DNA of 64,000 bases from Streptomyces sp. NBC_01233 (GTDB lineage Bacteria > Actinomycetota > Actinomycetes > Streptomycetales > Streptomycetaceae). Below the pieces are notes generated by a model, which searched no databases, was not told the DNA's origin, and was given only the letters and a program-made list of their open reading frames with translations. Positions 7,743 through 21,533 of this stretch are shown one piece after another (the stretch's first letter is position 1; each line of letters opens with the position of its first letter). The DNA is taken from positions 6,676,501 to 6,740,500 of the forward strand of contig NZ_CP108514.1 of NCBI RefSeq assembly GCF_035989305.1. Direction: 5' to 3'. Made by a program: the position numbers and the translations under genes.

Positions 7743-9332
7743 TCAAGAGGCCCAGGGCCAGTCCGCGTTCCGGCCGTCCTCGATCAGGGACACCATCCGG
7801 AAGGCCCCGTCGGTGAGCCCTCCGAAGGTGTGCCGGTTCCCGCCGCCGGAGGGCGCGTGCCCGACCCGGTAGCCCGCCAGGTTCCACGTGTAGACGGGTA
7901 CCGCGGACGGCACCTCCACCGTCGGATCGCCGCTGTAGCCGAAGGAGCCGGCCTGCTCGTCGGTGACGATCAGCACCCGGTCGTGGTCCCGGTAGTGCTG
8001 CTTCACGGCCTGGGCCGTACAGGTTCCGCCGAGGTCCTCGAAGCGCTCCAGCAGCTTCAGCACGGACTCGCCCCGCGCATACGGGACCGCCTTGCTGGTC
8101 GAGCCGAACTGCACGAGGTCGGCCTGCTCCGCCCGCAGCGCCACCGCCGACCCGAACACGGCCGCCGCATCCGCCCGGTTGAGCTTCGAGCGGTCCGACA
8201 GCGGGGACCACATCGACCCGGACCGGTCGACGAGCACCAGCGTCCGGCCCGGCAGTGCCGGTACGTTGGCGAGCGAGTGGCCGAGCGCCTGCTCCAGGGG
8301 GTACGCCCAGCGCAGCGAGGGGGCGTGCTGATAGGCGGCCAGGTAGCGGAAGGGGAACTGGCGGGACCGGGCGACGACCTCCGGGTCGGAGATCCTCGCC
8401 GAGACCTGCGCGGCCACCGCGTCCGAGACCCCGGCCTGGTCGAAGTTGCGCAGGTTGCGCAGCAGCGCCATCGCACCCATGGACGGGATGACCGCCTCCC
8501 AGGCGGCCGCGTCCATCGGGCCCTGCAGCCAGCCGGCCAGTGCCTCCCAGGTCATGCCCGCCGCCGCGAGGCGCTCCGCGCCGTCGGGGGCGAGGACCAC
8601 TCCACGCCGCTCGGAGACCGGCAGCTCCATCAGCGCCCGGTGGGCGGCGAGGGTGCGGTTGCCGGCCGGGACCTGCGCGTCGTCCGGGTTGTGGCGGCGG
8701 TCGAGGGCGTAGCGGAACAGCTCGCCCTGCCAGGGCTTGGCCGGGTCGGGGGACGCGTGCACGAGGTTGAGGACGTCACCGAAGCGGAAGGCCTTGGAGT
8801 CCGTGTCGTACTTCAGCAGCGAAGTGCCCGAGTAGAGCCGCCGTACGGCGTCGGCGATGCCGCGCTTGACGGGCTTGGGCACGGTGCGCCCGTACGTCGC
8901 CGTCCAGTAGCCCAGCAGCTCACCGGGCTCGTCCGCGCGCCGCAGTACGCGATCCACGACCTGCCGGTTCGAAGGCCCGTCGGTGGCGCCCGCGTCGAGC
9001 CGGGCCTTGACGTACTCGGCGGCGCCGACGAGCGAGGCGGTGCGCATGTTCGCGTCCCCGCGGAGCCAGCCCAGCAGGCCGGCCGTCCACGCGGGATCCT
9101 CGACGGCGAGGGTGCGCACGAGCGCGGCGAAGCGGTCGTCGCGGGCCTCGCCGCTCTCGTACGCGGTGCGCTGCGTCACGAAGTTGGCGACGGCGAGCAG
9201 GAACAGCTCGGAGCGCGGATCGCGCAGGTGGCCGGGGCCGCCCTGAGCGGTGCGGGCGCGGCCGGTCGAGCGAACCGGCGAAGTGGGCGCGGCGGGCGCC
9301 GACTTGGACGCGCGCAGGTTGAAGCGAGCCAT
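7743..9332 (-). CDS. TROVE-domain RNA-binding protein (Ro60/Rsr orthologue)
   Basis: 529 residues. The TROVE alpha-helical repeat domain occupies about residues 30-360; a von Willebrand A domain follows and opens with an intact MIDAS motif, DRSGS (residues 369-373). Ro60 proteins form a ring that holds misfolded or damaged RNA in its cavity and binds Y RNA on its outer face; bacterial Rsr pairs with exoribonucleases in RNA quality control. Here the gene is immediately downstream of a cluster of Y-RNA-like genes on the same strand, the nearest ending 38 nt before the ATG. That position strongly supports the assignment. A GGGGGG ribosome binding site precedes the start. Confidence 0.93.
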   Translation of the reverse strand: MARFNLRASKSAPAAPTSPVRSTGRARTAQGGPGHLRDPRSELFLLAVANFVTQRTAYESGEARDDRFAALVRTLAVEDPAWTAGLLGWLRGDANMRTASLVGAAEYVKARLDAGATDGPSNRQVVDRVLRRADEPGELLGYWTATYGRTVPKPVKRGIADAVRRLYSGTSLLKYDTDSKAFRFGDVLNLVHASPDPAKPWQGELFRYALDRRHNPDDAQVPAGNRTLAAHRALMELPVSERRGVVLAPDGAERLAAAGMTWEALAGWLQGPMDAAAWEAVIPSMGAMALLRNLRNFDQAGVSDAVAAQVSARISDPEVVARSRQFPFRYLAAYQHAPSLRWAYPLEQALGHSLANVPALPGRTLVLVDRSGSMWSPLSDRSKLNRADAAAVFGSAVALRAEQADLVQFGSTSKAVPYARGESVLKLLERFEDLGGTCTAQAVKQHYRDHDRVLIVTDEQAGSFGYSGDPTVEVPSAVPVYTWNLAGYRVGHAPSGGGNRHTFGGLTDGAFRMVSLIEDGRNADWPWAS

Positions 9333-9370: not shown

Positions 9371-9542
9371 GCGTGAGGGATGCCCGAGATCGGGAATCGG
9401 CGGCGGACTTTTATGCCCGGCGAGCTGCCTGACTGCTCCACCAGCCCGTTCCCTTGCGGGTGACGAGCCGGGTGGGATTCGAACCCACGACCTCCGGGTC
9501 CCCAGAAGTAGCCGTCGCCTGCGCACCGGGCATCCCCCACGC
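9371..9542 (-). ncRNA. Y-RNA-like ncRNA with circularly permuted tRNA-fMet-like module (copy nearest ro60)
   Basis: On the minus strand, 9542-9527 and 9386-9371 form a continuous 16-bp closing helix whose single irregular pair is G-U only in the minus-strand RNA. Inside, in this order, are an anticodon-stem 3' strand CCCGG (9498-9494), variable loop AGGTC, T-arm with loop TTCGAAT (9483-9477), a 9-bp acceptor-like helix (9471-9463 with 9449-9441) closed by CCC-GCAA-GGG, a D-arm (GAGC/GCTC, GG in the loop, 9438-9422) and the anticodon-stem 5' strand CCGGG (9420-9416). This is a tRNA fold opened at the anticodon loop and closed at the acceptor end. The helix below it should be the Ro-binding stem. 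Bacterial Y RNAs are known to mimic tRNA. Confidence 0.85.
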
Positions 9543-9545
9543 GGG

Positions 9546-9618
9546 CCTCCCGAGATCAAGGTGGCGGCGGCCTGGGTTTCTTTGCAAAAGAAGGAGCCGC
9601 TGCCTGCGCACCGGGAGG
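9546..9618 (-). ncRNA. Mini Y-RNA-like hairpin lacking the tRNA module
   Basis: A 73-nt hairpin: CCTCCCG (9618-9612) pairs with CGGGAGG (9552-9546). Its 5' strand repeats the 22-nt motif of its neighbours (GTGCGCAGGC...CTTC, 9611-9590) and its 3' strand shares GCCGCCG and GATCTCGGG with the copy at 9371-9542. In place of a tRNA-like domain it has a small hairpin, TTCTTT-TGC-AAAGAA (9592-9578). It looks like the Ro-binding stem alone. It could be an independent RNA, part of one long transcript, or a processed spacer. Confidence 0.6.
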
Positions 9619-9762
9619 TGCGTGACGTAGGTGTCCAGAGAACAAGGCCGGCGAAACCACAAGGTGCTCTGCCAGCTGAGCTACACCGGCCCGAAGCCGG
9701 TGACGGGACTCGAACCCGCGACCGCCCGATTATGAGTCGAAGTAGGTCTCGCCTTCGCACCT
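9616..9762 (-). ncRNA. Y-RNA-like ncRNA with circularly permuted tRNA-like module (copy nearest nudix)
   Basis: AGGTGCG (9762-9756) pairs with CGCACCT (9622-9616) as the closing stem. Between them lie, in permuted order, a Met-like anticodon-loop remnant CTCATAA (9736-9730), T-arm GCGGG-TTCGAGT-CCCGT (9719-9703), a 7-bp acceptor helix CACCGGC/GCCGGTG (9702-9696, 9690-9684) closed by TTCGG, the TA linker, and a D-arm GCTC-AGCTGGCA-GAGC (9681-9666). Its anticodon stem is weaker than in the other copy. The shared 22-nt motif GTGCG-A-AGGC...CTACTTC is at 9760-9739. It begins 15 bp after the Nudix stop. A conventional tRNA search may flag only its T- or D-arm. Confidence 0.78.
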
Positions 9763-9776
9763 GGACGAGGAACACG

Positions 9777-10208
9777 TTAGGCGGCGGGGCCGGGATCCAC
9801 CACGCAATTACTGAGCAGTGTGGGCACCATGACCGACTTGCCGTCCGTACCGCGCGAGAGCGGGACCCAGATGAGCCCGACCATCCGGGGGCAGTCGCAC
9901 TCCAGGTCCGCGTCGACGCCCAGGACCGGCTCGCCGGGCGCCACGTCCACGCGGAAGCAGGAGGTCCAGCCCGAGGGGTAGGGCGTGTCGTACGCGTACC
10001 GCACGCCCAGGGCGTGCAGGCCGGTCTCCTCGGCCACCTCCCGCCGGACCGCCTCCTCGGGCTCCTCGCCCTCCTCCAGACCGCCGCCGGGCAGGGTCCA
10101 GTACTCCGGCCCGTCGTGCCGGGCCGTGGCCCCCCTGCCGCGCTCGCGGACCATCAGCACGCAGCCGTCGCGGACGATGATCGCGGCGACCCGGCGCCGC
10201 TCCGTCAC
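9777..10208 (-). CDS. Nudix hydrolase
   Basis: 143 residues. The Nudix box is complete: GGGLEEGEEPEEAVRREVAE followed directly by ETGL, with the REVAEETGL core binding the divalent metal. Nudix enzymes cleave nucleoside diphosphates linked to another moiety, such as ADP-ribose, NAD(H), Ap4A, oxidised nucleotides or RNA caps. The GTG start overlaps the stop of the NADAR gene (GTGA), so the two are translationally coupled. A coupled NADAR partner favours an ADP-ribose or NAD-related substrate (inference). The Y-RNA cluster begins 15 bp after the stop. Confidence 0.88.
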   Translation of the reverse strand: MTERRRVAAIIVRDGCVLMVRERGRGATARHDGPEYWTLPGGGLEEGEEPEEAVRREVAEETGLHALGVRYAYDTPYPSGWTSCFRVDVAPGEPVLGVDADLECDCPRMVGLIWVPLSRGTDGKSVMVPTLLSNCVVDPGPAA

Positions 10209-10759
10209 GCGCCGTCCTCGCGCAGCCGCTGCCGGGCCTCCATCAGGGCGAACCCCAGCAGGTTCAGCCCGCGCCAGCGGGCCGGGTCCAGGGCGCGCTC
10301 GTCGTCGGCCGCGAGCCCGATGCCCCAGATCCGGTCCATCGGGCTCGCCTCCACCAGCACCCGGTTCCCGGTGCCCAGCAGGTACGAGCGCAGCGCCGGA
10401 TCGGAGCCGAACTTGTGCAGGCTGCCCTCCACGACCAGGGCGAAGCGCTCCCGCTTCCATATCGCGTCGTCGAAGCCGCGCACGAGCCGCCCGGCCTTCT
10501 TCGCGGCCGCCGGACTCTTCGCCTCCAGCGCGGCCCGCTCACCCTCGGCGTCCCCGAACAGCCTGGCCTTGCCGGCCATCATCCAGTGCTCGGCCGTGGC
10601 ATATCGGACGTCACCGACAGTGAAAGCCGAGGGCCACCACTGGCTCAGGCAGCTCGGTCCGAGCCTCCCGTCCGGCAGCGGCCGGTGCCCCCAGAACGGC
10701 AGGTACTTCACCCGTTCACCGCGGCTGACCTGCTTGATCAGGTCCTCGATCATCTCCAT
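10205..10759 (-). CDS. NADAR (YbiA/DUF1768) family protein
   Basis: About 184 residues. Family landmarks are LSQWWPSAF near residue 36, AEHWMMAGKARLFGD, LVEASPMDRIWGIGL, and the C-terminal WRGLNLLGFALMEARQRL. NADAR proteins act on ADP-ribosylated or N-glycosidic compounds derived from NAD or flavin precursors; some remove ADP-ribose from nucleobases. I use the ATG at 10759, where homology begins soon after; in-frame starts further upstream cannot be excluded and no strong ribosome binding site is visible. It is first in a minus-strand series with Nudix, Y RNAs and Ro60. Confidence 0.87.
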   Translation of the reverse strand: MEMIEDLIKQVSRGERVKYLPFWGHRPLPDGRLGPSCLSQWWPSAFTVGDVRYATAEHWMMAGKARLFGDAEGERAALEAKSPAAAKKAGRLVRGFDDAIWKRERFALVVEGSLHKFGSDPALRSYLLGTGNRVLVEASPMDRIWGIGLAADDERALDPARWRGLNLLGFALMEARQRLREDGA

Positions 10760-10830
10760 GCACGCGAGTCTGGCAGTCGCCACTGACACTTCGTACGGGA
10801 TTTCCGGTGTGCCTCGACACATGGTCGACC

Positions 10831-10866
10831 GATTCCGTCGCGTAATCAAAAGGAAACAACGGAATC
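10831..10866. promoter_or_regulatory. Inverted repeat GATTCCGT-N20-ACGGAATC
   Basis: Perfect 8-bp arms at 10831-10838 and 10859-10866 flank an A-rich spacer in the divergent region between the NADAR gene and the polyamine operon. The spacing suits an operator bound by a dimer, or a hairpin. It may control either or both divergent genes. Confidence 0.4.
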
Positions 10867-20646: not shown

Positions 20647-21391
20647 CCCAGCCCACCCCGAACAGCAGGGGCGTGCACATCAGCAGGCTGGCCAGGACGT
20701 CCAGGGGCCAGTGCCACCCCCGCAGGACCAGCCCGACGGCCGTCGCCCCCGTGAGCACGAGGGCGGCGGCCGTCGGCCAGGGGCGGCGGGTGTACGGGCG
20801 CACGAGCAGGGCCGCGCCGAGGTACGCGACGGCCGCGGTGGCCGTGTGGCCCGAGGGGAAGTAGCCGGCGGCCCACGGTTCCAGGGGGCCGGGCCGGGCG
20901 GTCCACTCCTTGAACGGGATGACCAGGGCCGGTACCAGGGCCATGGCCAGCCCCGCGGCCCCGGCGGCGAGACGCCGGCCGCGCCACGCGGCGCAGGCCA
21001 TGGCGAGCGCGAGGACGGGCACGGCGACCGGGATGTTCCCGAGGTCCGACAGACGTTCGGTGACGGAGTCCGGGACCGTGCGCACCAGGGCGCGGCTCAG
21101 CGCGTGATCCGGCGCCAGCAGCGGGCCGGAGACCAGCACCTGCCAGGTGATCAGGGAGAAGACCAGGCCGCAGACGACGGCGATCAGGAGAGGAGTGGCC
21201 GGCCGTCCCGGAACAGGGGGGATGGTTCCGGGACGGCCGCCCGGATCGGGTTGCCGCACGCCCCGGGGGGTTTGGGGCGAACGGCTGTCCGATCGGTGAG
21301 GAGTGTGCGCGAACGCATGTCCAATACGGCGCTGGGGAAGCCCGGTACTGGTGTCGCCCTCGGTTTCCCGTGAGCGGGGTGTCTCACTCAT
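20612..21391 (-). CDS. PAP2-superfamily membrane phosphatase
   Basis: About 259 residues from the ATG at 21391. A disordered basic N-terminus precedes several membrane spans. The three acid-phosphatase motifs are present: KEWTARPGP, the catalytic PSGH in YFPSGHTATAAVAYLG, and RGWHWPLDV containing the nucleophilic His and Asp. Such enzymes dephosphorylate phosphatidic acid, isoprenyl pyrophosphates or similar lipids at the outer face. An in-frame start at 21460 is possible. It converges with the chitinase gene. Confidence 0.88.
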   Translation of the reverse strand: MSETPRSRETEGDTSTGLPQRRIGHAFAHTPHRSDSRSPQTPRGVRQPDPGGRPGTIPPVPGRPATPLLIAVVCGLVFSLITWQVLVSGPLLAPDHALSRALVRTVPDSVTERLSDLGNIPVAVPVLALAMACAAWRGRRLAAGAAGLAMALVPALVIPFKEWTARPGPLEPWAAGYFPSGHTATAAVAYLGAALLVRPYTRRPWPTAAALVLTGATAVGLVLRGWHWPLDVLASLLMCTPLLFGVGWVSRRSIRRSSG

Positions 21392-21533
21392 CTGCAGAAA
21401 CCGTACGGCAGCAGAAGGGGGACCGACAGCAGGATCGCGCTCCCGCCATCGGCCCCCCACAGCTTCTTCACAGCGCCCGCCCGTTACCGCCGGTATGGAG
21501 GGGGTGCTGCGATCGGACGTTCTAGGCGTCCGC

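Follow-up and report, generated by a model that had tools for sequence, protein, structure and literature searches.

Y1, the first of three tandem Y-RNA-like genes in the 64-kb stretch of DNA analysed here (the window), is a whole tRNA with a Ro-type stem inserted between positions 28 and 29 of its anticodon stem. The three genes, in the order Y1, Y2 and Y3, directly precede a TROVE/Ro60 gene on the minus strand, and in each the stem opens with GGTGCG and closes with CTCNGG. The TROVE/Ro60 (Rsr) protein of 529 amino acids is encoded at 7743..9332 (-), on the same strand as the RNAs and downstream of them; its start codon is at 9332, and Y3 ends 38 nt ahead of it. The protein matched the Pfam families TROVE (E 1.9e-13) and VWA_2 (E 1.3e-4, under the curated cut-off), and its closest solved chain was PDB 9kop, a TROVE-domain protein (E 2.6e-27). 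The TROVE match on the same strand, with the RNAs upstream, bears out the adjoining Ro60 gene proposed in a first-pass annotation of this DNA. Its reading of the RNAs as Y RNAs gained support from permuted tRNA-like elements found upstream of TROVE in 69/90 Streptomyces stretches and 63/80 actinomycete loci. We consider that Y1, Y2 and Y3 are very probably the Y RNAs of the adjoining Ro60 protein.

The flanks of the locus were also inspected. Genes with NUDIX and NADAR domains lie directly upstream of the Y RNAs (9777-10849, -), and a NADAR-like coding end was seen by eye ahead of Y1 in L004, L006, L007 and L008 too; in other genera the tested flanks carried families other than NUDIX/NADAR. 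Conserved repair or toxin neighbours were considered and rejected, none being present among the 20 ORFs examined at 10 loci; RtcB is encoded elsewhere in the genome. Elsewhere in the window, 21288-21393 (-) matched the Streptomyces sRNA family Scr5676 of Rfam with 68.5 bits, above the gathering score.

Y1 (9633-9766, -) was delineated from its match to Rfam YrlA, from covariation and from our own covariance model, against which it scored 147.6 bits, being itself among the 49 sequences behind the model. In tRNA numbering, its inner end runs in the order 29-43, 44-48, T-arm, 66-72, linker, 1-7, U8-A9, D-arm, A26 and C27-C28. Positions 29-31 (CGA, 9737..9739, -) have as partner 39-41, inside 9725-9729, and the 7-nt anticodon loop CUCAUAA (positions 32-38, 9730..9736, -) contains the anticodon CAU (9732-9734, -). 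The variable loop CGGTC and the T-arm with the T-loop TTCGAGT occupy 9703..9724 (-). The acceptor stem of 7 bp, its 3' strand first, lies at 9684..9702 (-) with the linker TTCGG at 9691-9695, and is followed by U8-A9, a D-arm with GG in the D-loop, and A26 (9665..9683, -). The end of the D-arm strand is formed by positions 27-28 (CC, 9663..9664, -), whose partner, as indicated by covariation, is 42-43 (GG). Since 27-28, the partners of 42-43, sit at the opposite end of the domain, the break in the tRNA falls between 28 and 29. The tRNA has its four arms (21 pairs in total) and their loops, and we are nearly certain of this anatomy of the permuted tRNA-like elements.

The permuted order described in the first-pass annotation, with the T-arm followed by the acceptor 3' strand, a closing loop, the acceptor 5' strand and the D-arm, is present in both minus-strand copies, Y1 and Y3, as are the canonical T-loops (TTCGAGT in Y1, TTCGAAT in Y3), the GG of the D-loops and the closing loops. 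The annotation had further stated that the fold is opened only at the anticodon loop; this holds for Y3 but not for Y1, in which the break is at 28/29 and leaves the loop CUCAUAA whole. Against the Rfam YrlA consensus, the anticodon hairpin of Y1 appears as a 15-nt insertion. The covariance search with a bacterial Y RNA model, which had been suggested as a check, gave a divided answer: the E-values for YrlA (RF02553) were significant in both copies (Y1, 40.9 bits, E 1.4e-7; Y3, 37.8 bits, E 1.1e-6), but the scores were below the gathering score of 69 bits. That score was not reached in ten named loci either, the best match there having 48.6 bits, and six more stretches, our own locus among them, gave no RF02553 gathering match.

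Covariation and un-permuted forms of Y1

Y1 of Streptomyces (n = 45) were located by the T-loop and a stem motif, and the parse with the best pairing in the D and acceptor stems was kept. In this best-scoring parse all 45 had 7/7 acceptor, 5/5 T and 4/4 D pairs, and the anticodon arm was present in 44/45, being deleted in L005. The Y1-type alignment (n = 49) comprised these 45 sequences together with L075 and L080-L082, in which this fold sits in a different stem context. Paired cells made up 96.9% of this alignment, and 19/36 pairs had changed on both sides. Slid structures paired 32-46% of cells, and 0/500 shuffles reached any of five measures, relatedness among the sequences remaining in the shuffle tests on Y1-type elements. 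In the basal stem, 100% of cells were paired in the outer helix and 88.5% in the inner helix. Compensatory changes across the acceptor and Y (closing) stems, whose absence the first-pass annotation had set beforehand as grounds for refutation, were found: besides the shuffle result, 6/7 acceptor pairs showed changes on both sides.

The anticodon stem varies in the same manner. Pair 30-40 shows an exchange of C-G and G-C (40 and 8 sequences), pair 31-39 occurs as A-U, G-C and U-A, and no pair of 29-31/39-41 is broken in the 48 sequences with letters there. For the pairs beyond the break, 43-27 is G-C, C-G or A-U and 42-28 is G-C or A-U, again unbroken throughout; each double change at 27-28 occurs in one or two sequences. 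Unguided RNAalifold recovered the Y stem, the acceptor, T and D stems and the anticodon hairpin. For the Streptomyces set it closed this hairpin by two U-G pairs and not by 27-28/42-43.

The closing pairs were examined further at named actinomycete TROVE loci, where 64/99 elements had been chosen for the 29-31/39-41 helix and U33, blind to 27-28. Both pairs of 27-28/42-43 were formed in 59 of these, one pair in 4 and none in 1. Among the 59 doubly paired elements, 56 had five different Watson-Crick combinations and 3 included G-U. When the letters of 27-28 were reshuffled 2000 times, the mean was 21.8 and the maximum 33 of 64. A hairpin closed instead by the two nucleotides before 29 was rejected, since it formed in 41/64 elements with G-U and in 4/64 with Watson-Crick pairs only, compared to 59 and 56 for 27-28/42-43. 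In addition, 17 of the top 30 matches to our own model differed from the alignment, and all 17, although picked by the model, had the 29-31/39-41 helix and a like loop. At the level of sequence, covariation thus supports the predicted acceptor and anticodon stems, the pairs 27-28/42-43 included.

ARAGORN called no tRNA gene on the 64-kb window. When the segments of 107 elements (48 from the Streptomyces set and 59 from the named actinomycete loci, L005 with its deleted arm being left out) were placed in tRNA order, 107/107 were called as tRNA whether or not a 3' tail was appended, the 48/48 Streptomyces elements among them. None was called in genomic order (0/107), after shuffling (0/2140) or in wrong rotations (0/642), and 75/107 chimeras of halves from different elements passed. 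The 59 elements outside the alignment had been pre-selected for U33 and five pairs in the anticodon stem, which partly predetermines their calls; 44 Streptomyces Y1 were taken without pre-selection on anticodon pairs or U33. The elements constitute a bacterial family of whole permuted tRNAs, invisible to ARAGORN in genomic order.

Y3, Y2 and the distribution of the elements

As judged from its match to Rfam YrlA and from anticodon-stem covariation, Y3 (9371..9542, -) resembles YrlA and is a permuted tRNA with its opening in the anticodon loop. It runs from the T-arm through the acceptor 3' strand, the GCAA cap, the acceptor 5' strand, U8-G9 and the D-arm to CCGGG. The T-arm is GTGGG-TTCGAAT-CCCAC, the acceptor strands are paired 7/7 under the GCAA-containing cap, and the D-arm is of the GAGC/GCTC type with GG in its loop. 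The anticodon stem CCGGG (27-31)/CCCGG (39-43) and the 5-nt variable loop AGGTC are intact, in agreement with the earlier description, and the Y stem stands in place of the anticodon loop. Among the 63 Streptomyces Y3, the D-arm was GCTCA in 40, GAGCA in 3 (the window among them), Leu-like GCGGA in 17 and parsed otherwise in 3. In the 43/63 class-I relatives, that is, outside the 17 Leu-type and the 3 parsed otherwise, 202/215 anticodon-stem pairs were formed, against a mean of 149 and a maximum of 166 in 2000 shuffles. Most of the Leu-like Y3 have a long variable arm. The acceptor stem of Y3 (n = 63) is less regular than that of Y1, with 7/7 pairs in 44, 6 in 14 and 2-4 in 5. In the Y3 at L032:681-834 and L083:343-496, an extra G+C-rich stretch, perhaps a hairpin, is inserted into the 3' Y-stem strand.

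Y2 (9546..9618, -), which was absent from the first-pass annotation, is located between Y1 and Y3. By its sequence, it is a short Y-RNA-like stem (CCTCCCGGTGCG...CTCGGGAGG) without a tRNA part. A stem of the Y2 type (TCCCGGTGCG ... CTCGGGA) was found in 66/90 Streptomyces stretches. In Planobispora and relatives (L193, L194, L196 and L208), a weak T-arm was discerned by eye in the RNA at the Y2 position, accompanied by a TAGCCCA-type D-arm in L193 and L208. Y2 may therefore derive from a tRNA copy that has decayed.

A TROVE match was obtained in 90/150 Streptomyces genomes, some of the matches being weak or partial. Among the 90 upstream stretches, in which some genomes are represented twice and weak partial TROVE matches are mostly excluded, motif searches found Y1 in 45, another permuted element in 67, all three RNA types in 34 and neither Y1 nor Y3 in 21. 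In L068-L074, L076, L078 and L079 of Streptomyces, the TROVE genes are 65-73% identical to that of the window and the T-loop motif was not found upstream; these genes are Ro60 paralogues, possibly with other Y RNAs or none.

Upstream of 80 named actinomycete TROVE loci, a scan with cut-offs of a score of at least 22 and at least 5 T, 3 D and 5 acceptor pairs revealed 99 permuted elements in 63 loci; 17/80 loci were without an element at these cut-offs, some of them (e.g. L250) owing to the cut-offs alone. Of the 99 elements, 59 had U33 and a full anticodon stem, 24 were opened and 16 were unclear, and at least one full-form element was present in 48/80 loci. The full form occurs, among other genera, in Planobispora, Planomonospora, Nonomuraea, Microbispora, Actinomadura, Lentzea, Saccharothrix, Nocardia, Rhodococcus, Nocardiopsis, Catellatospora and Streptomyces, and the number and spacing of elements differ between genera. 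With our own Y1 model at E <= 1e-8, 9 of 346 genomes across the phylum matched, all of them Streptomyces and one (G133) via a tandem-tRNA junction only, a figure that says little on the spread outside the class because the sample holds few relatives and the model leans to Streptomyces.

Anticodon loop, origin and possible roles

The 107 elements share a fixed loop frame. Position 33 is U and position 38 is A in 107/107; U33 was a criterion for the 59 actinomycete elements and A38 was not, and A38 was present in 62/64 elements prior to selection on 27-28. Positions 36-37 are UA in 69, CA in 12, GG in 11, AA in 7 and others in 8, and in the real tRNAs of the genome CA in 17, UA in 16, GG in 13, AA in 12 and others in 2; positions 36-37 of the elements follow the real-tRNA pattern. 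Changes were counted on a tree of the 49 sequences that was built from the rest of Y1 plus 400 nt downstream, with the anticodon-arm columns excluded. Positions 34 and 35, with 17 and 16 changes, were the top two of 131 columns (column mean 3.0), and 33 and 38 had 0 changes, 32 had 2, 36 had 3 and 37 had 5. The frame is thus mostly C32, always U33, mostly a purine at 37, and A38. With U33 and A38 fixed while 34-35 change fastest, the shape of the anticodon loop is kept and its identity is not, a pattern that separates tRNA shape from decoding.

Twenty different anticodons occur among the 107 elements. The own-genome tRNA stretches examined, with 43 anticodons, include 19 of these but not AGG (hypergeometric P 9e-4, types treated as independent). 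An anticodon that always matches the tRNA body was rejected: with the tRNAs of the own genome as reference, isotypes agreed in 13/59 elements (shuffled mean 4.9). In Streptomyces no link between body and anticodon was found, 11/48 agreeing compared to 9.2 in shuffles (p 0.24). A Glu-like D-arm goes with a 4-nt variable loop in nine elements, as in the Glu tRNA sequences of the window's genome; the anticodon is that of Glu in six of the nine (CUC in 5, UUC in 1) and GCA (2) or UCC (1) in the others. The Glu-like body with a Glu anticodon fits recruitment from a real tRNA.

The sequence TAACGT (9774..9779, -), a -10-like box, lies 13 nt upstream of the 5' end of Y1. A TANNNT box was present upstream of the Y1 stem in 45/45 Streptomyces Y1, at 13 nt in 43 and at 12 or 15 nt in two, a distance that would place the transcription start close to the first nucleotide of the stem. 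The minimum-energy fold of the window Y1 is a rod (-57.3 kcal/mol, versus -46.5 kcal/mol for the cloverleaf form), and the means over the 49 sequences were -57.3 and -42.6 kcal/mol, respectively; as calibration, the three hairpins were present in the minimum-energy fold of 35/61 real tRNA sequences of the same genome. The acceptor strands are joined by linkers of 0-11 nt (107 elements), 0-4 nt long in 43/107 and GAAA or TTCG in some; in 7/45 Streptomyces Y1 the linker starts with ACCA. Since the strands are joined by such short loops, a free, chargeable acceptor end is unlikely.

In the same genome as the window, two tRNA-Asn genes 5 nt apart (L124, G000:C1:3131500-3132050) matched positions 28-105 of the Y1 model with 54.6 bits, and matches to these model positions recur in many Streptomyces genomes. 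The joint of tandem tRNA genes is already in permuted order, so that such junctions make permuted folds by themselves. We infer that capture of a tandem-tRNA joint between the strands of a Y stem would be a simple route of origin. Passages of PMC3978253 discuss a similar tandem-joint route for permuted tRNA genes.

The best explanation of these findings, to which we assign a probability of about 0.5-0.6, is that a Ro-bound RNA shows a tRNA surface to a tRNA-binding partner. By analogy with YrlA and Y RNA biology, the long outer stem, with its GGUGCG start and CUCNGG end, would bind Ro60. The inner end would present the tRNA to the partner, and the RNA might in this way tether Ro60 to a tRNA-binding enzyme or keep that enzyme in place. 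As the loop frame is kept and 34-35 change fast, the partner most likely reads the tRNA shape, the elbow and the anticodon-loop architecture, and not the codon. Points that weigh against this explanation are the rod as minimum-energy fold, the U-G closure drawn by RNAalifold, YrlA scores under the gathering score, the chimeras that pass ARAGORN, the Streptomyces stretches in which Y1 was not found, the lost arm of L005 and the opened or unclear elements of other loci. A series of Y RNAs with whole tRNAs allows a direct question, namely which partner needs the anticodon arm and whether that partner reads the anticodon.

The main alternative, though rather unlikely, is that the tRNA replica acts as a decoy or sponge, drawing off anticodon-loop enzymes (RNA-cleaving toxins, anticodon nucleases or modification enzymes) while Ro60 holds or delivers the bait. 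Tentatively, actinomycete Ro60 particles could carry counterfeit tRNAs rebuilt several times from different sources, namely class I, Glu-like and Gln-like (4-nt variable loop) tRNAs, the opened Y3 type also from Leu-like ones; 34-35 would be rewritten fast, in an arms race, and the frame for modification enzymes and the U-turn would stay fixed. Such a role would suit the intact anticodon loop in 107 elements, the 20 anticodons with 19 among those of own-genome tRNAs, and the position of 34-35 as the two fastest columns in a fixed frame, and Hughes et al. are cited in its support. However, the fast change at 34-35 may be mere lack of constraint, Y3-type RNAs lack the anticodon loop, and no toxin or nuclease family was present among the 20 flanking ORFs at 10 loci, of which 17 had mixed, unrelated Pfam families and 3 had none.

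The remaining alternatives are weaker still. The three RNAs could form a structured 5' UTR that puts the TROVE gene under the control of Ro60 or of tRNA levels; the shared strand, the 38 nt between Y3 and the start codon and the promoter-like box ahead of Y1 agree with such a cis-acting leader, which is compatible with the tether, but the number and spacing of elements vary between genera and free-standing RNAs fit this better, so that we consider a leader improbable. It is even harder to credit that this is a permuted tRNA gene whose product matures into a working tRNA, perhaps in two pieces in the manner of the two-piece tmRNA that arises from a permuted gene. The un-permuted strings are called as complete tRNAs and ACCA starts the linker in 7/45 Streptomyces Y1, but linkers of 0-4 nt in 43/107 elements, GAAA and TTCG loops among them, leave little room for a mature 3' end; moreover, the anticodons change many times within one genus, and ordinary tRNAs for 19/20 of them exist in the genome. 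That the elements are functionless debris of tandem tRNA genes, as the match of the own tRNA-Asn pair to model positions 28-105 might indicate, we regard as next to impossible; it is already disfavoured by the covariation, and the promoter-like box and the fixed loop frame also speak against it.

Comparison with known systems

YrlA shares with the present RNAs a gene beside Ro60, a long basal stem and the order of T-arm, acceptor hairpin and D-arm. Passages of PMC8394870 describe YrlA as a tRNA mimic with D, T and acceptor arms and report modification of Salmonella YrlA by DusA and TruB, and the YrlA structure PDB 6CU1 is described in part of PMC11472068 as circularly permuted relative to tRNA. 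As the permutation of YrlA is already published, the headline of the first-pass annotation is known for the family. Y3 follows the YrlA plan, down to the short helix in place of the anticodon stem. Y1 differs from YrlA in that an anticodon arm is added and the cut is at 28/29, not in the anticodon loop; with its 7-nt anticodon loop not opened, it is described as a YrlA variant and not as an ordinary YrlA. Some Streptomyces Y3 (17/63) also differ from YrlA in that a Leu-like tRNA is copied. In the literature searched, no description was found of an anticodon arm with a cut at 28/29, of the diversity of anticodons or of the exchanged tRNA bodies, which does not prove that none exists.

Permuted tRNA genes of algae and archaea likewise have the 3' part ahead of the 5' part, with an intervening stretch between. 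According to passages of PMC3978253, these genes have a bulge-helix-bulge motif and yield mature tRNAs. In contrast, the acceptor strands of the Y1-type elements are joined by short loops, and a Ro-type stem is located at the break. A tRNA mimic inside a non-coding RNA is also a feature of tmRNA, including the two-piece permuted tmRNA. In tmRNA, the free acceptor end is kept and an anticodon arm is not known. Y1 shows the reverse, with the acceptor ends joined and the anticodon arm present.
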